The notes under the pieces were generated by a model. That model searched no databases, was not told where the DNA came from, and saw only the letters and a list, made by a program, of their open reading frames with translations. A stretch of DNA of 20,985 bases from positions 429,083-450,067 of the forward strand of contig NSJX01000021.1 of the NCBI GenBank assembly GCA_002286715.1, read 5' to 3'. This DNA comes from Dentipellis sp. KUC8613 (lineage: Eukaryota; Basidiomycota; Agaricomycetes; Russulales; Hericiaceae). A program made the position numbers and the translations under genes. Shown here in pieces: positions 4,377-20,985 of this stretch. The first letter of the stretch is position 1, and each line of letters starts with the position of its first letter.

Positions 4377-4754
4377 TCAGATGTTCCGCTTCACCATCTC
4401 CTTGCTCGGAGGACTATCCCAGTCGGATATGACGCGCTTGGGTGATGGAGCAGACGGCGGAGACAAATGTGCTTTGTCCGCCGGCGTCTCTTCCTCGCGA
4501 GTGCGGTTGTTGCTCGTCTTGGGCTCGGGCTTCGAGCCCTTCTGATCACCTTTCGTCTCGGCGGGCGTCGACGGGCCAGCGATAGGCTCAGCAGACGGCG
4601 CAGCCTTGGAAGTACGCCGCTTCGACGCTGTTGGCGCTTTCCCTTCCGGTGCGGCCTTCGCCTTTGGCGACTTGGGGGTCTGCGGCGACGCGGCGGTGAC
4701 AGAAGGCGTGCTCGCCTGATGAGTGAGAGTCGAGACGGATTGATGCCGGTGAGG
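4377..4754 (-). pseudogene. Orphan 3' exon of a Lys/Pro/Ala-rich protein
   Basis: On the minus strand one frame, read from a possible splice acceptor (CCGGTAG, exon start 4754) to a TGA at 4377-4379, gives 125 residues. They are rich in Ala, Pro, Ser, Thr and Lys (for example TPKSPKAKAAPEGK) and end with RVISDWDSPPSKEMVKRNI. The composition looks like a disordered protein tail, and the last 20 residues look more constrained. An ATG at 4765 is in a different frame. No convincing upstream exon was found between 4770 and 5000. It is therefore either the last exon of a gene I cannot complete or a gene remnant. Function is unknown. Confidence 0.35.
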
Positions 4755-5017
4755 CTACCGGACATGATACGGGAGAGGACGTTGTCGTGATGAAGGAAGA
4801 ACTAAATCTAATGCCGATGGATGAATATCCTAGGGACTTCTCGTCATCTTGTCACTGGAGGCAACTCGCTCCCTTCGGAATTCAGGTTCATCACAATCTC
4901 CCTAATGAAGAACAACACCATTCAATAGATGTGTCAGTCAACTCTATGCTCTAGATCAATTTCGTTCGTATTTTATTTTCAGACATCACTGTGTAATTCA
5001 CGAATAAACAGTACATA

Positions 5018-6039
5018 TTACAGATTTTCAGGCTCCTGCCGGATAAGCTCGATTGCAGTAAGTACTTCCTCTAACATTTCTTCATGTAGTACCTTCAAAG
5101 CTTCGAGATTATGAAGCTCCTCCTCGTTCCGCATGTTTATCTCCATCTCATCGATGAGGGTCTTCGATTGCGCCAGTAGAGCGGACGCAGTATGCGCAGT
5201 TGAGGAGGACGACGACGCCACCATTGATGCTGAAGTCGGTGCCGCGCTCCTTCCTGAAATTGAGCCATGGGTCAATGCCACAGTTTATGAATGATGCAGT
5301 TGCTTACCGACAGATTTATCTTTCAATTGAGCTTTGCCTGTGTTGGAATTCGAAGGGTGGGCCGTGGAATTGGGTGAGCTTGGTTTGGTGAGGGCTTCGG
5401 CGTCGGAGTCGACGTCTGAAAAGACGTCGAAAGGAGCTTCACTCCGTCCGGATGCGGGCGCATCGTTGCTGCCGTCGCTATTCTCCCGAGCGTCGTTACT
5501 GGACTGGACATCCGAAAAGACGTTGAAGTCGCCTGCGTTCTGGTCAGTCTCATTTTGAATAGCCATGGCTCCGTCTTCGGCGTTCGAATCAACGTCGGAG
5601 AAAACGCTGTAAGCGTGTTCTTGCAGGTGTGGAACTAAGATGAGAGAGACATTATCAGCCTTGTCAGGGTAGATCAGCCGTTGAAGACGAGCGGACATTA
5701 CCTTCTCCGCCAGAAGGGGCGGCGGACTCAATGCTGACATCTGAAAAGATGTCAAAATCATTGTCCTAGAGGTCGACAGTGGGCTCACGATGTGAAGAGG
5801 AAAGGAGTTTCTTACGACTCACCGTAGCTCCCGGCACGCGAACGTCTGCAGTCACTCAGGCACTTGGGCCGGCGTCCGGTTCGCGGTACATGAAGTCGAG
5901 GGGGTTGACTTCTGGTGACAACGCCATATCTTCCTCAGAGGACGACAAATGCCCTTCTTGCCTCATGTTAGCATTGACTCGAAGACACTGGTAAAGTCTC
6001 ACCCATATCACCTCCATACTCAGCGAAGCTGTCCTTCAT
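5018..6039 (-). pseudogene. FSDV-repeat acidic protein gene, interrupted by an in-frame TGA
   Basis: Five exons (6003-6039, 5823-5956, 5702-5765, 5308-5634, 5018-5253) join with clean GT/AG introns of 46, 57, 67 and 54 bp. The sum is 798 nt, 266 codons including the stop. The frame holds across all junctions, but one TGA (5856-5858) lies inside exon 2. Four copies of a short motif recur: DFDIFSDVS, AYSVFSDVDS, DFNVFSDVQS and PFDVFSDVDS, in a Ser/Asp/Asn-rich acidic background. The C-terminus (about 60 residues, from TLIDEMEIN onward) looks like an amphipathic helix or coiled coil. The start at 6039 is tentative. Peptides upstream (6040-6313, for example YLFHYNPDFKQW) look protein-like but could not be joined. 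I do not recognise the family. It may be a pseudogene, or two genes. Confidence 0.5.
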
Positions 6040-6241
6040 AGCTGTTCCATGGATCAGCCCATCTCGTCGAGCAATCAAGATGATCACCCAAGCTCACTGT
6101 GGTCTATTTCCTCTACTGGGGCACTCTGGCTGTCCTCGCCCCTTGTTGTTGCTTTTTTCCTCTGTTGGTATTTCCTCTTGCCCATTGTTTGAAGTCCGGG
6201 TTGTAGTGGAATAGGTAGGAGGACTCTGGATCATTGTGCGT

Positions 6242-6278
6242 CCGCGCGTCACACCATGATTGCGTAATTGACGCGCGG
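6242..6278. promoter_or_regulatory. CG-rich palindrome upstream of the zinc-cluster gene
   Basis: CCGCGCGTCA (6242-6251) and TGACGCGCGG (6269-6278) are perfect 10-bp inverted arms around a 17-bp spacer, 130-166 bp upstream of the ATG at 6408. A CACGTG box lies close by near 6289. Zinc-cluster regulators commonly bind inverted CCG/CGG triplets, so autoregulation is possible but only inferred. If the minus-strand neighbour extends to 6313, this site would lie in its 5' part. Confidence 0.35.
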
Positions 6279-6407
6279 TCACATGCCCACGTGCGTCTGC
6301 GCGACTTAGCCACACGCGGCGAACTTTGCTCTTGTGCACAACCACCAGCATCAACTCTGCCCTTGATCCTTTCTACTCCTTCGCTACCCCCGTCTTCTCA
6401 CATCTTC

Positions 6408-9400
6408 ATGGCCTCTCTGGCGACTCTCTCTTCGATGTCCGTGGCTGACACGGCTTCAAAAGTCCACGTCGCAAATGCTCGACTTGCGGCCGCGCTGACG
6501 GCCTTCACGAAGCTCAAGAATCCGAACATTGCATGGTGGAGAGAAGCGATCTCCAATGAAGTGGTATGTTTTGCTCTGTATTCAACCTTTTTGATGACCT
6601 CACGTCTTCCCAGAAGGACGTTCGTGAAGCATTCGCCGTGCTGCGTCACGCCGGGGCGCAAATGCCTCTCCTGCTGACCCGAACAGGCGTGGCATATCGC
6701 TCGGGAGTCGATAGCGTCGACCTTGCTGCCCTTGTCGTACGCGGGAAGGTGAAACTGGATGCTGAGGATGGAGCAGGCGGGTTTGGACAAGATCTGGTGG
6801 GCTCAGATCGTCAGTGGTGGGAAACTCAAGGTGCGCTGCTTCACTCTACAGTACAGCTTTTAGCTCACAAGTTTAATAGGAGATACCGTGGGTCAGGGAG
6901 CTCTGGGGCCCGTACCTCCGGTTTCTGTAGCCGCTCCCTCGACTTCCGCAGTTCTGGCGGGGCCCACTCCCCTCTCTGCCGCTCCTTCGCAACCCCTTCC
7001 TCAATCCTCGGCTCCCCAGAAGACGGATCCAGCGTCTGCCGCTCAACCCGCGACTCCGCGCCCCGCTCCTCAGCCTTCTGCACCTCCGCGCTCTGCTCCA
7101 CCACGCCCTTCCGCTCCGCACCTTGTCCCCCCACCACCTGCGGCATCAAGCCCTGCTAGCGGCATATCGGGAGCTCGCCACACTAGAAGCCAGTCCGCTG
7201 GCAACAAGCCGCCCGTTGGGTCTCCAAAGACGAAGAAGAAGTCGGCGCGGCAAGCTTCGGAAGATCTGGAATGGGAGCTCGCTGTAAGTGTTCTCCGCAT
7301 GCAGCTGGCCCGTTGCTAACGAACATCTAGGAATACAAGTGCATGCCTTGCTTGCATGTGCAGGCGTTCTCGAGCGCTCCCGTCGAGTGCATGGTCCGCG
7401 TCGCCCCAAGCAAGAACCAACGTGCCAAGTCCTGCAAAAGGTGTGCTCACCGAAAAGAGCGATGCGAACCCGTCACCGGAAGGGCTCGCGTTGATGCGTG
7501 ACAAGATACGACGCAGGTGAAAGAGGGAGATAAGGAGGCCACTGAAGGCGACGAGGGTGCGCAGGAGGACGGAAGGGATGCAGACGAAGGGGAGTCCGAG
7601 CTGGAGGAGGTCGACGAACTGGAAGAGGATGAGGAGAGTGGGGCGGAAAAGGGCAAAGGGAATGTCAAGGGCGCCGGGAGGAAGAAGGGAACGGAGTCGG
7701 GGAAAAGGAAGACGCGCAGAAAGGTGGCCGTGCAGGCGGAGGACAAGACAAAAGAGAAGGGACGGGGTCGAGGTAAAGGGAAGGGCCGTGCGGCTCCACC
7801 TGCCCCCGCTATGCGCAGATACTCTACGAGGGGTGTAAAGCGTAAGTCATTAAGTCATTTATTCCACTCTTGTTCTAACCAAACCGTTAGGCGCTGCACC
7901 AGAAGAGGCCGATAGCGGCGAAGAAGACGAGAGCGCGAGGACCAAAGACGCAAAGGTTGGCCCGCCGAAGAAGAAGTCGAAGGGTCCTGGTAAGTGACAT
8001 CTCTAGCTTTTTATTACTTCCTATTTACTTTTGTGTCTTGCTACTAGCATCCACACCCTCTAGCTCTCCAAACATTGTCTCAAGACAGCCGGAAGCACAA
8101 CAGCCCCCGCCTCCAGCGTCTCAACAACCAATTCCGACGCCGCCGCCAATGTCAACACCCGTGCCCATGCCGCCGCCTGCTCCGAAGCCGACTCCGCTGC
8201 CTGTGCCCGTGCCGACGCCGCCTGTGCCCACGCCGACTCCGCTGCCTGCGCCCATGTCGATGCCGCTGCCTGCGCCGATGCCGACGCCGACGCCTGCGCC
8301 CATGTCGACTCCGCCGCCTGTGCCCATGTCGACTCCGCCGCCTGTGCCCACGTCGACTCCGCCGCCAGCGCCCACGTCGACTCCGCCGCCAGCGCCCATG
8401 TCGACTCCGCCGCCAGTGCCCACGTCGACTCCGCCGCCAGCGCTAGCGGTGGTGACCTTGCCTATGCCGACCACAGCGTCTATGCGTGCGTCAGTAGGGG
8501 CGCCGCAGCCGCCAGTGACGCTGCTACCACTGGCGACGCCCGTTATCGTGCCCATGTCGCTTCCGACTCCGCAGGATCCCAGCTCTCCGCCGCAAAGGAC
8601 CCAATCGCCAGAAGAATTGACGGAGATCATCATTGAGGACAGGCGGCATGCAGGAAGAACTCCGAAGACACTGGAGGCCTCCAGAACAATGCTGCCATAC
8701 CAGTCTCGAATCCGCTCTGCCCGATCTCGCTCTCCCAGCATCGCCAGCACCAGCCACTGGTCACAAACGGCGGCACGCGACAACCTCTCGTTCGCCGAGA
8801 GGCTCCAGCTCCTCGAAGAGGCGGCCCACCGGGATCGGACAACCGTCCAATCTCTCGTCCACCAGGTGCAATGCTACAGGGACGAAATCATGGAGATGGA
8901 GGACACTCAAAATGCCCTCATTGCCGACTACGAAGCACACAAGGCAGACTTCCAGACGAACGACATGAACATCTGGGCCCGCATGTCCGAGATACACCGA
9001 GCGACAACCCGCACCGGCCGCGAACTTCAACAGTTCGAGGATCGTCTCAGACATGTCGAGAGCACACAGGAAGAAGCCGGAGTCTTTGTGGGAGGAAGCC
9101 AAGCGAACCAGTGGAGCCACAGGGACCGCGACGCAGGCAGCATCTCCGAAGGCCTCTACCAGGTGTGCATGGAGTCTCCGGCGAGCGAAGCCCAGCGACT
9201 CGCGCAAGCCGACGTGGCCATGGAGTCGCTGGTTGGCACCGGCCCCACTCGCAAAGGTCAAGTCTTCAGCCCCCTTATCGACCTCACTACCCCTCCCCAG
9301 ATTCCAACAGATGCCCAAAGCATCATACCACCGGATGAAGTGTATAAGCGGGTCGTCCTCGGAGAGGATGTTGCGATGTTGGCAGAGGGAGACGCGGGGA

Positions 9401-9456
9401 GCTCGAGCATGGTGCTCGAGCACCAACATGGTATGGATATTATGGGAGAGCAGTAA
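6408..9456 (+). CDS. Zinc-cluster, proline-rich, coiled-coil protein (916 aa)
   Basis: Seven exons (6408-6563, 6614-6830, 6880-7283, 7331-7471, 7517-7841, 7891-7989, 8048-9456) with introns of 45-58 bp total 2751 nt, giving 916 aa and a TAA stop. Order of parts: an N-terminal helical region (1-125); an Ala/Pro-rich linker; a six-cysteine cluster at C263, C266, C279, C294, C297, C304 whose end (SCKRCAHRKERCE) resembles fungal Zn(II)2Cys6-type DNA-binding modules; an acidic stretch (about 310-345); a Lys/Arg/Gly-rich stretch (about 346-410); a repeat of about 110 residues built on STPPPxP (467-579); and a predicted coiled coil (about 696-788). This plan suggests a nuclear DNA- or chromatin-binding protein that dimerises. 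The donor of intron 4 (GTCACC) is weak. Similar proteins are common in repeat-rich regions of Agaricomycete genomes; target and role are unknown. Confidence 0.75.
8141..8450 (+). repeat. In-gene proline repeat (STPPPxP units)
   Basis: Inside exon 7 of the zinc-cluster gene, 21-bp units such as CCCATGTCGACTCCGCCGCCT repeat with small changes, most regularly between about 8297 and 8440. They encode seven-residue P-M/T-S-T-P-P-P units. The frame is preserved throughout, which fits an expressed but length-variable linker. Confidence 0.75.
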
Positions 9457-9895
9457 AGATGAATTATTCCCCAACAGCATCTATTACATCTAGTTTCTTG
9501 CTTTTCCCTATGCTTTTTTGCTGGACTTCTTGACATTTTTCTTGCTACAATCTTGTCTTTACCTTACAGCTTGCTTAGAATAATAGAATCTCAAAATGTG
9601 TGCATTCATCAGTCTGATTCAACTGGATAGAATTTATAATGCAACTTTTTCTCCCAAGGAATAGTTCCAATGCAAACCAAACTCTATCAAATGGCAGGCA
9701 TTCCACTTAAAGCCACCAAGATCAGGGGACTTGGAGACTTGACACAGTGAGATACATAGCATGCTCTTCTTTCCATCGAACACGACGCGCGCGCGGAATG
9801 CCGAAGGAGGCAGGATAATCCAGTGACGATTGCAGACAGGTGATCACGTAGCTGGGCGTGCGCTAAAGTCACTCCGGAGAACACATATGAGCTAC
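9457..9895. other. Intergenic: 3' flank of the zinc-cluster gene
   Basis: The first 140 bp are T-rich and likely hold the 3' UTR; AATAATAGAA near 9579 is a possible polyadenylation signal region. No gene follows. GGAATGCCGAAGG near 9795 is an inverted version of the core found in the adjacent 31-bp array. Confidence 0.45.
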
Positions 9896-10388
9896 GGCAT
9901 TACTTAATTACGCTATACCACGTCCGGAGTAATTGAACATATGGTAGCGCACCTCTGGCATTACTGCGCAGTCGAAACAACGCGTTTGGCATTACTGCGC
10001 GCGTTCCCAAACGCCATCGGCATCACTGTGCGCGCAATGTAACACCTTCGGCATTACTATGCGAGTACCATAAACCCTTCGGCATTGTTGCATGAGTAGT
10101 AAAGCCTCTTTGGCATTACGCTACAGGTCTTCAAGTGTCCCCGGCATTCCATGCATGGCATTGAGAGCCTCCGGCATTACTTTGTGCGAGATAACCTGTC
10201 TTCAGTTTCCTCGGAGTGGTGTACATTGCTATCGGCATTACTTACAACGGAGGCTACTGCCTCCGGCATTAACGTTCAGTAAGTACAATACCATTGGCAT
10301 TCTGGATTACACCGTAGATCATTTTCGGCATTATTTTGCGCTAAGTAGATAGCTGCCGGCGTTCATTATTTCAATGCATGCAAGGTCC
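9896..10388 (+). repeat. 31-bp periodic array with GGCATTAC core (about 16 units)
   Basis: The core GGCATTAC, or a close variant, starts at 9896, 9957, 9988, 10019, 10050, 10081, 10112, 10143, 10173, 10234, 10265, 10296, 10327 and 10358. Two degenerate units fill the 61-bp gaps (near 9926 and 10204). Spacing is 31 bp almost everywhere and 30 bp in a few places. Only the first 8-10 bases are well kept; a looser GCG-G block follows, and the unit often ends CCTTC or CCTCC. The remaining roughly 15 bases differ widely between units. The region is non-coding. It begins 440 bp after the zinc-cluster gene and ends 136 bp beyond the stop of the minus-strand 971-aa gene. Regular spacing with a kept core and free spacers suggests a protein-binding array. 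Confidence 0.85.
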
Positions 10389-10523
10389 TTCACCTCCGGA
10401 GTCAAGTTAAAGTGTGAATTTAAGCCTGAGCACCGAATAACGTTATACCGAAGGCGGTTCATCACACGCAGAGTTATATATGGGGCCATTAATCTATTAT
10501 CACATTCGATGCCGATGCGCTTA

Positions 10524-13500
10524 TTATTTCCGCCCCCGCCTGCCTCCCTTTCCACCGCGATTTGAAGCTGGACCTACTGCTTTAGATGAAGACGGCTTTG
10601 CCGCAGTGGACTCTGCTGCTTTAGCTGTATTGAGCTGGCGGGTGGCTAACATCTTAGCACTTTTCTGGCGTTTGGCTTCATTCTCCTCCGAGAGACTGCA
10701 GAACATCAGCCGTGCGAACCATGTTGAGTAATTTATAGCGACTTACTTAAGTCCTCGCGCCGTCGGAATCTTTACTCTCACAGCTCGTCCTTCACCCGCA
10801 TTATCAGAAATGGAGGTGATTCCTCTCTTCTTCGAACTTACTGGAGTACCTGCAGATATTACCTCTCCGGAGACTTTCTTACCAACAGCAGTATCGGCAG
10901 GAGTGATGGAAAACGTGTCGGAGTCAGGGCCGGGAATATTCTCCCTACTTTGAGTCACCGCTGTCCCAGCAGATGCAAGGGTGCCAGGGCCGGTACTGGG
11001 GCCAGGAAGTGCATTGGGTGTAGATTGGTGACGACTCCCTGGATTACTCTCGGCATCGTTTGCCAGACTCCGAGCGGCAGCAGCCGCCGTACCACGATAT
11101 GCCGGCCTGGCCTTCGGCAATGCTGACTTCACAAGAGGGAGGACATGAGCAGGTGTCACGCCAGTAGTCCGGGACATTGCCGGAGTCGTCATTGTCGGCA
11201 ATGGCACAGGGCGGGGACGTGGATCGATTGGTATAGCTGCTGTCAGCCTCCCACGTGCTTCCCAGAGTTGGAACCAGGAGCGCATGCAATTACAAAGTGG
11301 TAAGAGGTACTGATTGACCTCGGAGAAGGGAATCTTAGAGGACTGTATGAATTCCGGTACAGCTGTTCCCGCCTCCTCATCCGGATCATTGGCACTGAAC
11401 TGACCCAGAGCCAAGTCGCGAAGCATGAGACCAATAGCGAGGCAAGCAAGGGCTGCATCGATGTAGGAAACTGGGTTGCGGGTCCTATGGCTGAATACCG
11501 ATTCGATCTTCAACCATTCCTTGAGCCGCAAGTAGGCTGCAGGATCCTCGTGGACCTTCTGGGGAAGCGACGGCATTTTCGAGCCCATGTGGAGCCATTT
11601 GGGATATCTCGGGCCGCTTTCAGTACGATCAGAGTCATCGGAATCGTCGCTGAGCATATGGTCGGGCTGTAATGCGATCAGAGTTATGCGTAGATATTCT
11701 GACGGCGAGGACATACATCTAGCCTCTCGAGAAAGTCAAGAAGAGCCTGGTAATCTGCTTCCACTGAAAGGGTGTGGAAGTATTTCATCATGGCTTTTGG
11801 CTGCATTCCATAAGGGTCTGTGCCATCCTCAGAGCTTGAGTCACCGGATCTCTTCTTCATGCAAATGAACTGGACGCCACGAGCGACGGATATTGATAAA
11901 AGCGTACCTTGCGAATAGAAGACACTTCTTCCTCCTCCTCACTCTCACTGCCAACGCCCGAGAGCTCGAAGTATTCCTCCGATTCCGTCTCCGTCTCTGA
12001 ATCAAGCATGCTCTTGTTCGCTTTTGCTTTTGCTTTCGCCTTTCCCTTTCCGTTTCCCCCTCCCTTTCCCTTTCCGTTTCCCTTTCCCTTCGCGTTTCCC
12101 TTCGCGATTGACTTCTGCTTCGACGCTTCCTTCGCATTTGCCTTAGCCTCTGCTCTAGCCATGGCCTTCGCGTCGGCCTTCGCCTTCTTATCCGCTTTGG
12201 CCTTCTGCATCCGCTTCACCTTCTCCTCCTTTCTGTTATTACCCTTGCTCTTCCCTTTACAACCGGCACCTGTCCCCACTGGACTCTCGGTATCCTCCGG
12301 ACGAGACACCTCCGGCATCTCGGTGTCTTCGGCTTCGGCCCCGGCATCTCCTGTACCCGTAACCGGCGGAATAACCGGCTCGCCCAATCCGGTGATCTCG
12401 ATAGCAAGTTCCTCAGGTCCAGACGGAGGCGCCTTTGTGCGACGATGGCCAGACCGAATGGCTTCCGGAATGTCGGCAGCTGCAACGGCTTCGCCCTCGT
12501 AGTAGATAGCTTTAAACTGCAGCGGAATGTTCCCGTCGTCTTGTCGGGATGCCCAGAGCTCTAATAGGGTATTGCAATCGTATTCGCGAAGCCTGGACGG
12601 TTCTGCAAACGTCCCGTGCACTGGCAGGTACTCGGGATCTAAGTAATCTTCCACATTCTGGGATATCGCAGACCATGGTATAGATTTCGCTGCGGGATAC
12701 AATTTATCTGTGTAAGCATGGCTGTCAGCATCTGTGCAGCGATAAGGCAGAGGCTCGGACTCACTATAGCATCGGAGAAAGACGATCCGAATTACCGCCT
12801 TCTTCCAGTTCAACGTTGGTGCCTCGCTAATTTCAGGAAGAATTGGGTGACCGTCGGAGCCGCATTTAATGTCATGCACTGTAGGAAGGTCTTCCTTTAC
12901 GGCGGTGAAGTTCCGAGCCCCTGTCCGGACAGCTAATTTATAACACAGTGAGACACAATGGGATCTGAAAAATCCGCTCGACATACCGCTGAGTTCCTCC
13001 GAAAACTTCTTGATACCGATGGAAATGGGCTCCTGATCCCAGGTAGGAACAAGCTGCGCTAGGGTATGGTGACCCAACATCTCGCCAAAGTCATGACTGC
13101 GTGTGGATAAGTCTATGTCATTCCCTAATAGCAGATGTTGCTTACATGCCGTACTCGGCTCCTCCGCCATTGTACGCAGACTTCACCCTTGCAACTAAGA
13201 ATACAACGCTCATTCCGAGCTGACGCTGAAGCGTAGTTGCCATATCAAGTAGGATTGACGCTCCCTTCCGAGCGTAGTATCTGCAGGAACGGAGTCACAA
13301 ATAGAGCGCAAGGAAAAGAAGGACAGTGTATCACTCACGCATCCTGGACCTCCTCGGGAGGAGACCAGCTTGACCATGATTCTGCCAGCTTCTCGTATGT
13401 CTCCAACATCTCCGGGGATAGCTTGCTCTCCATCGCTGTGAGTCCGGCTTGGTAGTGTTTGATGTACGCTGGTGTCCCTGGCTTTGATCCCGGTGCCAAG

Positions 13501-13865
13501 CGTAGAATCTCCTCGTGAATTTCAGCCTTATGGTAATGCGCTGTAACTCCTTTCCGGCTCCATCGGCGGACACATTTCGTTCCAGCATTGACCTGCCGCT
13601 TCCTGCCATGGACATAAAGCCATAGAATGAGATCCTGCGTATACAATGAGTCCGCCTATTAGTTTCCAAAGCTGAGGCATGCACGAACCTTCCTTTCCCT
13701 TGCATTCTCCATGGGCACTGTTTTGCTGAAAGGCCACTGTGCGTCAAAGTCGTGGACGATCGCTGAAGTGACTTGTTTCAGTTCCGCCGACGAAGCATCC
13801 TTGAATTCAGGCAGTCGAGCTCTAAGCCAGTCCAGCTGGGGGGCGGTGTATTGTATCTGTGCCAT
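10524..13865 (-). CDS. 971-aa protein of the cassette, function unknown
   Basis: Nine exons on the minus strand: 13865-13689, 13634-13339, 13280-13146, 13096-12987, 12932-12765, 12707-11908, 11854-11717, 11666-10747 and 10695-10524. Introns are 49-58 bp, and the total is 2916 nt. The ATG at 13865 is preferred over 13934 because the intervening 23 residues look like leader sequence. The first 250 or so residues (starting MAQIQYTAPQLDWLRARLPEF) look folded and resemble, from memory, N-terminal regions of uncharacterised proteins near basidiomycete DNA transposons. A Lys/Ala/Gly tract (446-527, with KGKG and AKAK repeats) and an acidic Ser/Glu tract (531-557) follow. Then come a second folded-looking region (about 609-750), a Ser/Thr/Pro linker and a basic tail ending RGGKGGRRGRK. 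The basic tracts suggest nucleic-acid binding. The exon 7 acceptor has a NAGNAG ambiguity (one residue). The gene is transcribed divergently from the TET/JBP gene. Confidence 0.75.
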
Positions 13866-14438
13866 GGGAGCGGAGGACGGAGGGAGCGATGGCAGTAGAG
13901 GTGAAGAGAACACAGATGTCCAATGCACTTTCAAGACGCGTTGCTCATCTCATGCGCTCGAGCACTTTATGCCGCCATAGACCGGTCCATGGCATCTGCT
14001 CGCGAAGTCCCTTGGCCCGCAACATCTGTTCTACACATCTCCACACCCGCCCTTTACATTCCACTGATTCCCCATGAGACCCTCTACATAACCGTCAAAG
14101 GTTCTTCTGCTCAGTGTTATTCCTTGCTTCTCTAGCAGCATTTCTGTGAACTCGAACTTGTAACCTTAACCCGGCCTCAAGCAGCTTTCAAGGACTCCAC
14201 GGACCATCCCTACGTCATTCCGGTCTGCTCGGAGGGATACCGGACAAAGCCGACCCTTCTCTACCACTTACTAATGATGGACAGAATTAGATTGCCGGCT
14301 GGGGCGTAGGGTATCATTACCACCAGCAATGTGTTCCCGTCTTCACCTTGACCTCGTCTCCCTTCTTACTTTTTTACATCGTGCACTTTTCTTACTCCGA
14401 CACGCACCACCTTTCACGCCCACTCTTCGGAGCTGGAG
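13866..14438. promoter_or_regulatory. Divergent promoter region between the 971-aa gene and the TET/JBP gene
   Basis: These 573 bp separate two head-to-head start codons and must hold both promoters. I see no TATA box I would rely on. Several CCGG/CGGA words occur near 14150-14300, and CT-rich sequence (14340-14420) directly precedes the TET/JBP start. Short open frames here have no domain. Confidence 0.5.
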
Positions 14439-15723
14439 ATGGCGGATATCTCTCGTGTCCTGCAGAAAACCGACGCTATGGCGGATTACCTTCGTTACCG
14501 ATATTTGCATAGCAAGTCCCTAGCTCCAGGAACCCCAATTCCCGAGCCGCCGAAGGCTATGCTGGAGCATCTGAATGTAAATGTCATATGTGACTTGGAT
14601 CACATATGCTTGCTGCTAGTCGCGGCTACTCATAATCAGGGTGAGTATGATTGCTGCCGCCGTTCCAGTCCTAGAGAATTATCGACATTGTCAGTCACAA
14701 TCTCCGTGGATGCGAAACGGTATTGCGAGCATGTTCCATCTGCTGCAGGACCGGCTAAGGAGGCGGAGCTCCGGAAGAAATTTCCACCACAGCAAATGTG
14801 GAGTGATGGGAACACTCGATCGTTTACTTCTCCAACCGCAATTGTTGATACGGGAGGTCGGCCGATCTGTTTCTTCTTGCCCGGTGCTCTCCGCGAATCT
14901 CGGCAGGTGATATACACGTCTCTGAGCCCCCGTCTTTGTTGACCGGAGTGCAGGAAACCATGATCGCTGCAACGCAAGGCCTAAACACACTGCTGGAGAA
15001 GAGTAGGAAGAGTCAACACTCGTCTAGGCACGCGCCGGACTTGTACCGGGATGCTCAGGACTGCGATCAGGTCTACCCCGGGTGTGCAGACTTATGCCCG
15101 GCTTGGTTCGCTTTGGGACACTCGGTCAGAGACTTTACGATGCCTGATATCCAATTTCTCACATTATATTGCAGGGCCGGGCATCGGATCTTCGCTCGTC
15201 TTCCAGTTTCAAAGATCCGCATGCCCAGAAATGGCTAGACGATATATCAGAGTCCAACGGACTGGTAACCGCCGCGCTCAAAGTCATTCACCCGGACTTG
15301 TATTTGGCAGGCATGGCTGCGATGAGGAAACTGAGCGAGCGATCGGACCTCTCAAATGTGGTCCTTCGCTGGTCTACAGTCTTCAGCGGAGTGTCGATCA
15401 TATCGAACCGGCAAACGCTGTGCCATCGGGACTTCAATTCACGACATGAGTATTTCGATATCCTCGCAACTATTGGGCCTTATGGATACACGACTCTCAA
15501 TCTCCCCGGATTGAATACCAAGCTGTCCTACACATGCAGAACGATTGTAGCCATCTCCGGGAAGGCATTTGAACACGAAGTACCACCTTGCGAGGCCGAC
15601 CGCATCTGCTACGCATATTGGATGCGAGATAGCGTTCATCGTGCGTTAGGAATTCCCACAGCGGACTGGACAAACATGAGGAAGGTGGAGAGAGGTTATG
15701 ATGGGTGTTACTACGGCGCATAG
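14439..15723 (+). CDS. TET/JBP-family 2-oxoglutarate/Fe(II) dioxygenase (377 aa)
   Basis: Four exons (14439-14640, 14695-14906, 14954-15124, 15175-15723) with introns of 54, 47 and 50 bp total 1134 nt, ending in TAG. The C-terminal half carries the dioxygenase double-stranded beta-helix signature: HRD with iron ligands H279 and D281 (in LCHRDFNSR), the distal ligand H329 (in KAFEHEVP), and R338 (in ADRICYAYWMRD), the likely 2-oxoglutarate-binding arginine. Upstream segments SPTAIVDTGGRPICFFLPG and CPAWFALGH match the usual layout of basidiomycete TET/JBP proteins. Such enzymes oxidise 5-methylcytosine (or thymine, in JBP) in DNA. No CXXC or other DNA-binding domain is visible, so it is a near-minimal catalytic protein. 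Fungal TET/JBP genes are known to occur with KDZ transposons, and the KDZ transposase starts only 137 bp downstream on the same strand. It looks intact; substrate and product are inferred. Confidence 0.9.
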
Positions 15724-15860
15724 GGCAGTAGTCAGTAAGCCGGATTTGTCCCTGGAGCACTCGTAATCGGGAACGCGTGGCTACCGCAGTCGGACTCTCT
15801 TTCGTTTGTTGATTCTGTTCTACTACCTTTTCAATCACTATCTCTTCATCATTAACTTCT

Positions 15861-18608
15861 ATGGCCAAGCGATTCAACCCCGGAGTAGATGCGGTTCAGG
15901 TCGCATTCTCATATACTAAGAATGGTCGCGGTCGCCGTACCACCAAAAAAATTGTCAAGGCGTCAGAAGCGTCCACGTTCTCCCCTTCAGTTCCCCCGAA
16001 AAATCTACCCAGCGCATCGACCTCTCAGCCCGCCGGATGGAATGACCTTGGAGAGGCAGAAGGACCGCCGTCGGCGTTGTTGCCGTCACAGACTCCTCTC
16101 AAAAAGCTGGTGAGTACGTTTCCGTTGCACCCGAGCTCCAGCGCTCATTCAACGCGTTTAGGCATCCCACCACTGGCTAGCGGAGTACCTACTCGTCAGG
16201 GACTCATATTTGCATACAATTCTGGAGCGCCAGGCGCCATTACTAGTTTGCAGCACCCCTGGATGTCCAGATAGAGCCTTGTGGAGATGCAAGGATTGCA
16301 TTCCGCAGCCCGTCTACTGTGCTACGTGCTGTCGGCGTGCTCACATGCCCATGCCTTTTCATCGTGTTGAGAAGTGGACCGGAACACATTATCAGGACGA
16401 CTGGCTGCTTAGCGTTGGCGTCTTCATCCCGCTAGGGCATCGCGGGAGGCCCTGCCCATCGACAGCTCATCGATTCCCTGGATATGACACTCCCACCAAT
16501 CCTTCTCCTTCACCGGGGCAGCCCTCTCCGGAGACGGTAAAACCATCCACAGCAATACCGGAACAAGGCTCGACTCCTTCCTCGTCACAGCACAGCGATG
16601 TACATGGACGAAAGCAGCAAAAGCTTTTGCACCCATTCCAGCATGGAGACGATACTCCCGGCTGTTACAACGCTTCGGAAACACCCTCTAATCGTGTCCG
16701 GCAGTCTTCCATTGGTGGGGAGACAGCTGTTGCAAGTATCGCTGAGGAAGGCCCAATACCTCCGGACGTGGACAATGTACATGATGTCATTGCCGACGCC
16801 CAAATACCGGTGTTGGACGATGCCGATCCAATGGAAGAAGATGAGCTTGCGGAAGACTGTGACTGGGAAGATACCGAGGACCTCGAGCGCACGAACGTGA
16901 AGCCTACAGAGCTTGATATGTGGGGTAACCCCATGATTCATGTTGTAGACAGCTCCGGAGTTCATCTCATCGGCATTAACTGGTGCGAATGCAAGGAAGA
17001 AGATCATCACATGCAGCTTTTTCGACACGGCTTATTTCCGGCAACGTTCAAATCTCCGAAGACAGCTTTTACATTCCAGGTTCTTGATGAGCAGAGATTA
17101 GATAATCTTGAATGCAAGACCACCGCGTTCCATTTCTTTGGAAAGCTTCGCCGTCTCACCAATCCGGCATTTCCTCACTCCGTACCGGTCAGCTTTTTAT
17201 TGTAGTCTTCATATCCAGGGCTGACGACTTCGAATGCAGAATCGCTACCGGGAACTTCTCAGAGTATCGAGGCAGTGGAGAGATCTCAAGTATAGAAGAT
17301 GGCATGGGTGGGGGCACCAGAATACGATGCCGGGAGAAGGGGATATGGCGCTATTCTGCTTCATATGCCCACGCAATACGTTCAACATGGAAGACAACTG
17401 GAGAGATGATCCGGATCAGTGCGTACGCTTTCTTTAACCCTCATCTCGAATCTAAACTTCTCGTAGGTTGTCGAACATGGTCGTCCTTGCAATGGACGGC
17501 AACTACGAAAACTCTTGCCTCAAGATGCGACGACCTGAAAACGATGTGGTATTGAGTGAGGGATCCGGATTTATGACGGCGCGTCCGCGTTATCGAAAAC
17601 ACTTGGACGTCGCTGTGGAATTCCGAGAGGTAGCTCATTTCCTTTCGGAGTTGCAGAGATGTCAATATGACCGACGGCTTTTTCAGAAATCCACCTGCCA
17701 CGATCACAAGGCAGTCAAGCAAGTGAACGCCAAGCGCGATCACCTTTCAAGCACCGGCTTGGGAGCTATTGTCTGCATGCATGGTTGCTTCGTTCCGAAC
17801 ACCGTTGTGGACTTCCAAGGAGCAGAGATGTACGTTTCATTTCACCTCGTTTGCCTTCGGCATCTTTTCTGACAGTTTCCGAAGGCAAATGAACATGGAT
17901 TATAGCCTATCCATGGCGGCTCGATTTTTTTCGTTTCTATATCTGATGCTCTTGCTATACGACATAATGTGTCAGTATTCGAAGCGCCTGGTGAAGCGCT
18001 TTGACGAGAGCCCTTATCTGGAAATGCCGGCGGGGATGACCGTGAAGAAAGGAATCGGCCTTTTCCATGTACATGGTCACAAGGACGAATGCCTTGCTCA
18101 GTATTCTCCCAATTACATCATAGGTGCTAGACAAGTCGATGGAGAGACCTGCGAACCGTTATGGTGGCCACTGAATGAGGTCGCTCGGAGTACAAAATCC
18201 ATGGCGTACTCGCACCGGAGAGAGATTCTGGATGATCACATGAGTGATTCAAATTGGAAGAAAACCGTTGCAGTCCGTGCGTAAACATTTCTCTGCGTGA
18301 AAATCATTCGGAATTGATAACCCCGGGCGTATAGCCAAAGTACTCTGTAAAAAGTACAAGAAGGCGGTCGTGGCTGTGAAGGAAACATCGGAATACCTGG
18401 TCAAGCTCACGGATAGCGCGGATCCCAATTCCGTCAGGGAATGGATTAGAGCAGACAAGCATGCTCAAGAGAACCGTGACAAGGATCCTTCGCTCATGGA
18501 CATTTATGACATCAAGCTCAACAAACGTGAGTGCAGTCCCATGGATCATTGACCAACTGTAACAAATCTCCACAAGTGAGAAGTGGGCCGGCAAGCAGCA
18601 GTTTCTGA
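15861..18608 (+). CDS. KDZ transposase with CxC2 cysteine cluster, C-terminally truncated
   Basis: Exons 15861-16109, 16162-17187, 17240-17418, 17467-17829, 17885-18276 and about 18335-18526 code 800 residues. A last intron (18527-18576) would lead to a tiny exon ending at TGA 18606-18608, about 810 aa. A CxC2-type cluster (C113, C118, C126, C129, C136, C139, H144, H150) is followed by an acidic linker, then WCEC (C358/C360) and the conserved region before the catalytic core. RNase H-like core candidates are D495 (LAMDGN), D632 (YDIMCQY) and E696 (GETCEPLWWPLN). FHVHGHKDEC and QMNMDYSL are also typical of KDZ enzymes. The core is complete, but full-length relatives continue further; here the C-terminus is replaced by MITE sequence, so activity is doubtful. 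The enzyme would cut and join the ends of its own element. The exact triad is assigned by analogy. Confidence 0.88.
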
Positions 18609-18706
18609 TTCATCTATGAGAGCCATCTTCATTCAAAATAACACATGCTATCATATATTGTAGATGAATCAGAACATGCTGCTTGCCAGCCCACTTCTCA
18701 CTTGTG
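18571..18706. mobile_element. Foldback MITE, 136 bp, with 46-bp inverted repeats
   Basis: The left arm 18571-18616 (CACAAGTGAGAAGTGGGCC...) and right arm 18661-18706 are inverted copies with three mismatches in 46. The 44-bp loop is AT-rich. No target-site duplication is clear. The arm resembles that of the neighbouring element (shared GAAGTGGGC/GAGTGGGCC and TCTGATTCA words). Its left tip coincides with the acceptor of the last KDZ intron. Confidence 0.85.
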
Positions 18707-18748
18707 ATGTGCAGAGCGCAGTGCAGCTGGTATTCCAGGTACAGTATG

Positions 18749-18924
18749 ACTAGTTGGGAGTGGGCCATCACATGTGCGGCAGGATCTGATTCAGCCAGGG
18801 GGGTTATTTCATCTCTGCGAATACTAAGGAGTTCTTGATTTTATTATATATCCAAGTAATAATGAACATGACATATTCCCCCCCTGGCTAAACCAGAATC
18901 TGCTGCATGCCACTCCCAACTAGT
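18749..18924. mobile_element. Foldback MITE, 176 bp, CTAGTTGGGAGTGG termini
   Basis: Imperfect inverted repeats of about 45-50 bp run from ACTAGTTGGGAGTGG at 18749 to CCACTCCCAACTAGT ending at 18924, each bordered inside by a run of G or C next to AGCCAG/CTGGCT. The middle (about 80 bp) is AT-rich. 18749-18889 is repeated inverted at 1000-1139. The palindromic ACTAGT ends hide any target-site duplication. Confidence 0.85.
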
Positions 18925-19370
18925 TTGACTTGAACTGACTTGATTTGATTTGTTTGCATGGTACCCAATTGAATTTGATCTTATCTTCTCTGATATGTTC
19001 TTGTCTGACTCTGTTTAATTTTACTGGATTTTACTGGATTTTGCTGGATTTTATTTGAGCTACACATAATATCCAGCTTAAATCTAAATAGTGAGAGCAT
19101 TGAAAATCATTTTATTGATACCTACATAAGGATGCAAAAGAACTAGTATACTGCAACTATGAAGACCCCAAGTATAAGAAAAATAATAAACAGATTGCTC
19201 AATGGTGAAAAGTAATCCAAAAGGTTCATATTGAACATCAATGAAAGCCTCAAAAGATCGAAAATACAACATACCATTGCAATGAAAACACTTAATAATC
19301 TGGGGGCAGTTCAAGTGAAGGCAGGACTAGGAAGATAAGAAAGAAACTTACTACAAGGTTCCAGAGGGCA
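18925..19370. other. AT-rich spacer with short tandem repeats
   Basis: No gene is supported. A TTGACTTGA/TTGATTTG simple stretch lies at 18925-18955. Three copies of a 10-bp unit (TTTTACTGGA, the third with G for A) lie at about 19019-19048. The rest is unstructured AT-rich sequence. Confidence 0.55.
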
Positions 19371-20985
19371 GAGGGCACGAGGACGGCACACACAGCACGT
19401 GAGGGTGGTGGAGAGGGCGGCAGGCAGTGCGAGGAGGGCGGCGGAGATGGCAACGGCGGCGCATAGAGGGCGGCGACGGCACATATGGCGCGTACGAACG
19501 GTACGCGAGGGCGGCGGAGACGGCGGTAGGCGGCAGCAGGTGGCGGCGGGCGGCGCGAGGAGGGCAGCGGAGACAGCAGCGGAGATGGTGGCGGACTGCG
19601 CGGAGAGGGCGAAGACGGCACGAGGAGGCGGCAGAGAGGGCGGCGGTGTGCGAACGAGGGCATGTCGGGCACGTGGACAGCGTGAGGGGGCGGCGGAGAG
19701 GGCGGAGAGGGTGGCGGTGGGTGTACGAGGGCGGCGGTGGGCGTACGAGAGCGGCGGAGAGGGCGGATGGCGCGTGGAAGGCACAAAGAGGGGGCGGAGA
19801 GGGTGGGTAGAGGGGCGTAGAGAAGCGGAGAGGGCAGCAGAGGGCAGCGGGGCACGTCGACGGCGCGTCGACGGCGCGTATGGGGCGGAGAGGGGCGGAG
19901 AGGGGGTGGAGAGGGGCAGAGAGGGTGGGGAGGGCATGAGGAGGCGGCCAAGGGCGTGTAGAGGCAGTGGAAGGCGCGTGGAGGCGGCGGACGGCGTGTA
20001 GATAGCGCGGGAAGGGCGAAGAGGGCGGCGGAGACGCGTGGAGGGCGCGTGCGGCCTGAAGAGGGTGTGTACGGCGCGTATGGCGCGTACGGTGCGTACG
20101 TACGCGCGTGAGGGCGGCGGAGAGGGCGGCAGGCGGCACGGAGAGGGCGGGGACGGCGCGAGGAGGCGCGGGGACAGCGCGTACGGCCCGAAGAGGGCGC
20201 GTACGGCGTGCGGAGGCCGCGCAGAGGCGGGCGGCAGGCGCATACGGCGCCCGGGGGGCGGCGGCGGGCGCGTGGAGGGCGTTGGAGGGCGGCGGAGGGC
20301 GTTGGAGGGCGGCGGAGGGCGGCAGGGAGGGCGCATAGGGCGCGTAGGGCACGGGGAGGGCGGGTCGAGGGCGCGGACGGCGCGGAGAGGGCGCGTACAG
20401 GGCGTGGAGGCGGCGGAGGCGGTGGTGACGGCGTATCGAGGGCGTGTAGGATACGTGGAGGCGGCGGTGATGGCGGAGACAGCGCGTAGAGGGCGGAGAC
20501 GGTGCGTAGGGCGCATCGCGGGCCCGAGGAGGTGTCAAAGAGGGTGGCGGACGGTGCGTAGGGCGCAAGCAGGTGGCGGATAGGGCGGAGAGGGCGCGGA
20601 CGGCGCGCGGACGGCGCGAAGAGGCGGCAAATAGGGCGGAGAGGGTGGCGGAGAGGGCGGAGAGGGCGCGTAGGGCGTGCGGACGGCGAAAAGGGCGGCG
20701 GTGGGCAAACAAGGGCGGCAGAGAGGGCGTGTGAGGCGCGTCGAGGGCGTGAGGAGGCGGCAGATAGGGCGTTGAGGGAGGCAATGGGTGAACGAGGGCG
20801 GCGGAGAGGGCGGACGGCGCATGGAGGGTGCAAAGACGCGGCGGAGAGGGCGGAGAGGGCGACGGTGGGCGATCCAGGACGGTGGTGGGCGATCCAGGAC
20901 GGCGGAGAGGGCACGCAGAGACGGCGAGGGGGTGCGAGGAGGCGGCAGTGGGGCGTGAGAGGGCGGTGGGACGGCATATCGCACA
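19371..20985. repeat. GC-rich GAGGGCGGCGGA-type repeat block
   Basis: The plus strand is made almost entirely of GAGGGCGGCGGA-like units with short local duplications: GGCGTTGGAGGGCGGCGGA twice at about 20278-20320, and TGGGCGATCCAGGACGG twice at about 20868-20905. The block runs off the window. Minus-strand frames up to 561 codons are open because stop codons cannot arise easily; they encode Pro/Ser/Arg/Ala repeats without a domain. I treat it as non-coding repeat DNA of the same general kind as the left blocks. Confidence 0.75.

Follow-up and report, generated by a model that had tools for sequence, protein, structure and literature searches.

A truncated KDZ element with a TET/JBP dioxygenase gene and a conserved divergent gene in Dentipellis sp. 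KUC8613

Does a KDZ transposase gene, together with the TET/JBP dioxygenase gene beside it and a third, divergent gene, make up a single mobile unit, and if so, what would the third protein contribute? This question is raised by a locus at the end of contig C84 of Dentipellis sp. KUC8613 (Russulales, Hericiaceae), where an initial annotation had proposed such a unit. We followed it up across the window, by which we mean the whole 20,985-nucleotide stretch of DNA that was analysed, and across the 34.1-Mb assembly of 171 contigs from which our contig labels (C1, C84 and so on) are taken; all genome-wide statements concern this one assembly. The reading that we favor, at a probability of roughly three in four, is that the window holds a truncated TET-positive KDZ transposon whose TET would weaken host silencing, and that the third protein belongs to the element as one of its conserved parts, probably a DNA-binding accessory.

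The three genes and their products

The TET/JBP gene (14439-15723, plus strand) encodes 377 amino acids in four exons (14439-14640, 14695-14906, 14954-15124 and 15175-15723). Pfam Tet_JBP is matched within 15148-15723 in a DNA-level scan (E 1.2e-16), and the protein itself matches PF12851 (E 3.9e-16). Among solved structures, CcTet of Coprinopsis cinerea alone is matched (7vpn and 8jkk, E about 7e-27). The HxD motif of the window protein (H279, D281) is accompanied by Ser at +5 and Asp at +11. It thus shares with CcTet (PDB 7vpn, 7w5p, 8jkk) the domain, the HxD motif and the equivalent of Asp337, and differs in having Ser where CcTet has Gly331, the key CcTet positions being those given in PMC12730594. 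All seven TETs over the Pfam cut-off in the genome retain the HxD motif and an Asp at the Asp337 position; the second key position is occupied by Ser (four), Thr (two) or Gly (one). We take the window protein to be an AG-type TET/JBP dioxygenase close to CcTet that would likewise oxidise 5-methylcytosine (5mC).

The TET stop codon at 15723 is separated by 137 bp from the ATG of the KDZ gene at 15861 on the same strand, as initially annotated. The KDZ exons in the window are 15861-16109, 16162-17187, 17276-17418, 17467-17829, 17885-18276 and 18335-18526. Pfam places the CxC2 cluster (PF18803) in 16162-17205 (E 9.2e-25), N-terminal to KDZ (PF18758), which is matched in 17456-17872 (4e-13) and again in 17727-18284 (1e-27). 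Tet_JBP, CxC2 and KDZ were thereby all recovered where the initial annotation had placed them.

The third gene (10524-13865, minus strand) has nine exons, which in the direction of transcription are 13689-13865, 13339-13634, 13146-13280, 12987-13096, 12765-12932, 11908-12707, 11717-11854, 10747-11666 and 10524-10695. This model yields exactly the 971 residues that had been claimed, without internal stops, and the frame is kept to the stop codon both in the window and in a second copy of the element on C1. The long basic and acidic tracts ascribed to its product are likewise there, a Lys/Ala/Gly-rich basic tract being followed by an acidic one. In their existence and their domains, then, the three genes are confirmed to be real. 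Between the third-gene ATG and the TET ATG at 14439 lie 573 bp (13866-14438) that are 99.1% identical in the window and C1 copies, and we regard this region as a putative shared divergent promoter. P0001 (DENSPDRAFT_876810, 722 aa), the publicly deposited model for this gene on C1, is identical to the C1 product of the 971-aa model over residues 1-695 and departs from it afterwards.

The third protein has no recognisable domain in Pfam and PDB profile searches. For the opening 422 residues of the initial gene model Pfam gave no match with E up to 1, and for P0001 none below E 0.03; protein-database searches, which each time scored the roughly 8000 candidates sharing most words, found P0001 alone. 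A PDB search with third-family profiles gave seven rows under E 0.02, all designed TPR proteins with no stretch passing alone, and eleven others at E 0.25-7.1 that included retroviral integrases and a monooxygenase; the latter was also the best match of a second profile search (E 0.039), and all of these were judged to be chance. The predicted fold of P0001 alone is too poor for use (pLDDT 40, pTM 0.21). A divergent HMG protein in such KDZ elements is reportedly mentioned in the abstract of Iyer et al. 2014. The Pfam HMG profile has no match in the third protein, and hhalign of the third family against hand-typed HMG rows gave a probability of 0.13 and a score of 5.25 over 18 columns, compared with at most 4.62 in 20 column shuffles and a probability of 97 in an HMG-to-HMG control that used the same kind of rows. 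We saw no significant resemblance to HMG in this, though a divergent HMG domain might escape such comparisons.

Co-occurrence and shared history in the genome

From 27 KDZ matches we counted 15 KDZ loci, and all seven loci with a TET over the Pfam cut-off are among them. Two Tet_JBP matches below the cut-off (C1:2538078 and C102:289002) were excluded from the seven, and their surroundings contain no TET, KDZ, third-gene or fourth-gene row at E 1e-3. The seven TET loci form four families, namely A (C84, the window copy, and C1), B (C171 and C46), C (C116 and C151) and D (C24), and every one of them has the order third gene (minus), TET (plus), KDZ (plus). Between families, the third proteins share 17-36% identity, and the link from family C to family A has an E of about 0.1, yet in hand-trimmed rows they can be aligned along their length with invariant residues. 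At the other eight KDZ loci, the third family was found at none in searches with three third-protein queries in which the best candidates were scored. By pairwise identities, seven of these eight are distant KDZ types and one, on C26, is a partial relative of the C24 element; the association of the third gene with TET may reflect one KDZ clade.

Trees of the third, TET and KDZ proteins share a single topology, with B and D on one side and A and C on the other, in line with a common history. Four families allow only three possible trees, which makes the chance of three genes agreeing one in nine, and long branches are flagged in each of the three. The trees, like the B and C selection estimates given below, rest, for the remaining elements, on initial models of the third gene and of KDZ with introns unrefined, and the C24 third-gene model is partial (595 aa). 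The constant gene order and the single topology together support the view that the three genes are one inherited unit.

Truncation, element ends and related elements

Window positions 4384-18577 are 96.8% identical to C1:2139103-2153227. This homology stops at 18571-18577, at the 3' edge of an intron, where a 178-bp dispersed repeat starts (18572-18749). The repeat has seven other full-length copies at 96-98% identity among 74 matches to 18560-19300, and carries 46-nt inverted arms at 18571-18616 and 18661-18706 (inverted repeat I3). At about 18571 it takes over from the element, whose right end and final 378 transposase residues (of 1166) are lost, such that the KDZ gene of the window (15861-18571) keeps 788 residues, while the C1 copy encodes the full-length 1166-aa protein. 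The window copy is thus 3'-truncated and, having lost its transposase C-terminus and right end, could not move by itself. Of the proposed mobile unit, the set of three genes inherited together is supported and an intact element in the window is not; 18608, initially given as its right limit, is not an element end, and the KDZ gene is not complete. The left edge of the homology is another dispersed repeat, and we judge 4384-9820, which is 95.5% identical to C1, to be flank outside the element.

Several features of the surroundings deserve mention in their own right. Inverted copies of one dispersed repeat (1004-1139 and 18749-18884; 136 nt, 93%) frame the region, and long GC-rich low-complexity repeats occupy 1300-2400 and 19350-20985 near the contig end; open frames of similar composition adjoin the C24 and C116 elements. 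Within the flank common to C1, 7891-9456 is an open frame in which a 24-bp repeat encodes Pro-rich units and whose C-terminal part is, by eye, coiled-coil-like. On C1, a fourth gene of 412 aa, absent from the window copy, lies downstream of KDZ (18341-19748 of the reversed stretch); its protein has no Pfam family and in a genome search at E up to 1 matches its own locus only. Predicted genes also follow KDZ on C171 and C24 (L047 and L049, families B and D), with a similar SWWA...YWW stretch by eye, and family C has a different, minus-strand gene there. Just past the right end region of the C1 copy, a tandem array of ~97-bp units with GGCATTAC (21502-22100 of the reversed stretch) runs into N, and the C1 sequence is N beyond 22104.

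The left end region of the element (9821-10520) contains a plus-strand subterminal array of a CGGCATTAC-like motif at 9895-10334, with a step of 31 bp, about three turns of DNA. Allowing one mismatch, CGGCATTAC has 11 matches in 9880-10400, all of them forward (500 shuffles: mean 0.15, maximum 2), and no forward match left of 9895 within the window. The GGCATT cores lie 31, 61 or 62 bp apart, save for an additional copy in the window that falls at half a step and is absent from C1. A period of 15.4 bp, half of 30.8, fits them best, and none of 1000 random sets fits any period equally well. Tandem Repeats Finder reports no tandem repeat in 9700-10600, so it is the spacing of the motif that is kept and not the spacer sequence. 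In C1, the opposite end of the element (20400-21400 of the reversed stretch) has five matches, all inverted (shuffles: maximum 2); such inverted matches also occur singly, with 14 in the readable 22.1 kb of C1 and four of these in its first 3.2 kb. Family C has a motif of its own, TAGCCGCGG, found by a shared 8-mer scan without a shuffle test, of which its two copies have 7 and 10 inverted occurrences at the right end, many of them 30 bp apart, and few forward ones at the left. Inverted subterminal arrays on both sides place the third gene inside the unit.

The left limit initially drawn, 9896, corresponds to the first motif of this phased array and is not a proven terminus. The outermost base is uncertain, the candidate being a 5'-CA at 9821 that belongs, in C1, to a candidate terminus pair CA..TG with a 6-bp repeat. 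As a target-site duplication (TSD) this repeat is not significant, since it was reached by 18 of 300 shuffles in a narrow search and 128 of 300 in a wide one, and in the C1 copy, which retains the right end, no significant TSD and none of 7 bp was found. The 400-bp end regions of C1, whose outer limits are approximate, share at best a 14-bp inverted match (E 0.05). The left flank occurs at no third locus, and the assembly contains no empty site.

The element is most likely a TET-positive KDZ transposon of the Kyakuja type, an assignment over Dileera or Zisupton that follows the host orders given in PMC12730594. TET-positive Kyakuja as such have been described, Russulales hosts included, and are the sole TET-positive type that Kojima reports from this order (Kojima 2025, PMC12730594); the link between TET/JBP genes and KDZ transposons, which the initial annotation treated as established, is accordingly already in print. 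Like the Kyakuja of Agaricomycetes described there, our element combines a KDZ transposase and an AG-type TET in one unit and has a host in Russulales; no long terminal inverted repeat is seen between its provisional ends. Those elements have 7-bp TSDs and CA..TG ends, whereas here only the non-significant 6-bp/CA..TG candidate is seen. The portions of PMC12730594 consulted name neither the third gene nor a phased subterminal array for Kyakuja, and among titles and abstract openings on Kyakuja, KDZ and Zisupton there is no description of either; terminal motifs of KDZ elements in Marasmius oreades are reported in a supplementary figure of PMC8290104. CxC2-KDZ elements of Pleurotus ostreatus (PMC7641404) are similar in that the CxC2 cluster precedes intact KDZ transposases, and differ in that the consulted part of that paper names no TET gene. 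KDZ1 of Cryptococcus neoformans (PMC12810828) is also an element of about 11 kb with a KDZ superfamily transposase and a CxC domain, but this is CxC1 rather than CxC2, the element has 241-bp TIRs, 8-bp TSDs and demonstrated movement, and no TET is named in the part consulted.

Constraint, CpG mutation and possible roles of the genes

Coding constraint is evident in most of the genes. By a binomial test, neutrality is rejected in eight of nine gene-pair cases, with dN/dS for third gene, TET and KDZ of.29 (p 3e-4),.61 (p 0.27) and.36 (p 1.5e-3) between the A copies,.20,.13 and.36 between the B copies, and.18,.14 and.15 between the C copies. The exception is the TET of pair A, which shows no significant constraint, a result drawn from only 15 changes.

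Differences between copies also carry a CpG bias, measured against the GpC pairs of the compared sequences themselves. CpG transitions make up 62 of the 108 differences in the gene interior of A, where a transition is seen at 62 of 534 CpG pairs and at 13 of 554 GpC pairs (odds ratio 5.5, p 6e-10). The corresponding counts are 136/651 against 64/658 in B (odds ratio 2.45) and 226/778 against 120/782 in C (odds ratio 2.26). The shared flank of A is biased as well (87/459 against 43/464, odds ratio 2.3), and there is no excess in the A promoter (2/31 against 2/35, p 1.0) or in the TET region of C (p 0.23). The host genome has five DNA_methylase matches. The plain reading of this excess is deamination of methylated CpG in and around the elements, and this deamination also shows that TET failed to protect the copies from such loss. 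At about 10,520 in the window, identity to C1 rises from 94.6-95.5% in the flank and left end to 98.4-100% in genes, introns and promoter, and non-CpG transitions fall seven- to eightfold across this step; the A interior looks as though it was homogenised by recent gene conversion.

These observations can be joined into a tentative mechanism. Acting on family-specific subterminal motifs, the KDZ transposase would move the element by cut and paste, and the element-borne TET would oxidise 5mC at CpG sites of the element, which could weaken host silencing of the shared promoter. Silencing relief by transposon-borne TETs in general has been proposed by Kojima (PMC12730594). The third protein would most likely be a DNA-binding accessory that reads the element ends or brings TET or the transposase to them. 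Several findings weigh against this explanation as a whole, namely the truncation, the flank shared by the A copies and the lack of a significant TSD or an empty site, and, on the side of silencing, the lack of significant constraint on the TET of A and a CpG excess that extends into the flank and is missing from the A promoter and the TET region of C. For the third protein, the absence of a recognisable domain counts against it as well.

The copies might instead have spread mainly through segmental, repeat-mediated duplication of chromosome blocks, with an old and passive transposon part carried along. Beyond the element, 5.4 kb of flank is common to both A copies, which makes this pair look like a segmental duplication rather than two insertions; pair C is homologous, piecewise, over about 17 kb, and both homology edges in the window are dispersed repeats. 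As a general account we nonetheless find it unlikely, given that the genes of pairs B and C have open frames and show constraint, that inverted subterminal arrays lie at both ends, and that four diverged families sit on different contigs. That the A pair represents two alleles of a dikaryon is disfavored by the RPB2 family, whose seven exon matches at three loci are haploid-like.

Other alternatives concern what the proteins do. Accessory end-binding proteins exist in other DNA transposons, and the third gene, which adjoins the array within the element and diverges in step with both KDZ and TET, could encode one of these, an aid to transposition unrelated to TET. This is possible, if somewhat doubtful, as the third family was not found at the eight TET-less loci, though seven of those are distant types and the eighth only a partial relative of C24. 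In a further reading the 971-aa family is a dedicated targeting partner, which would bind the helically phased, family-specific motifs and bring TET to its own element, with erasure there and not genome-wide; we consider it a long shot. Plant transposons do encode anti-silencing proteins that act on short repeated motifs of their own element, Vandal VANC and Spm TnpA, and these may serve here as a working analogy only; Vandal is mentioned in PMC12730594. The TET, for its part, could serve a different reaction, either removing 6mA or leaving oxidised bases as a mark of its own, rather than relieving 5mC silencing. CcTet also acts on 6mA (PMC12730594), its key Asp is kept in all seven TETs with the other position variable, and in Coprinopsis and Laccaria transposons carry oxidised 5mC (PMC12730594; PMC8889193). 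The CpG mutation excess, however, points to 5mC on these elements, and we hold such a reaction to be rather improbable.

We therefore retain the reading of a truncated, TET-positive KDZ transposon with the third protein as a conserved component. Transposon-borne TETs are known, but not the means by which they could act on the element that carries them. With a third gene that accompanies TET in four diverged families of one genome, phased arrays at the element ends and a CpG excess between copies, two proteins and a single short array of DNA would be enough to test self-targeted erasure.
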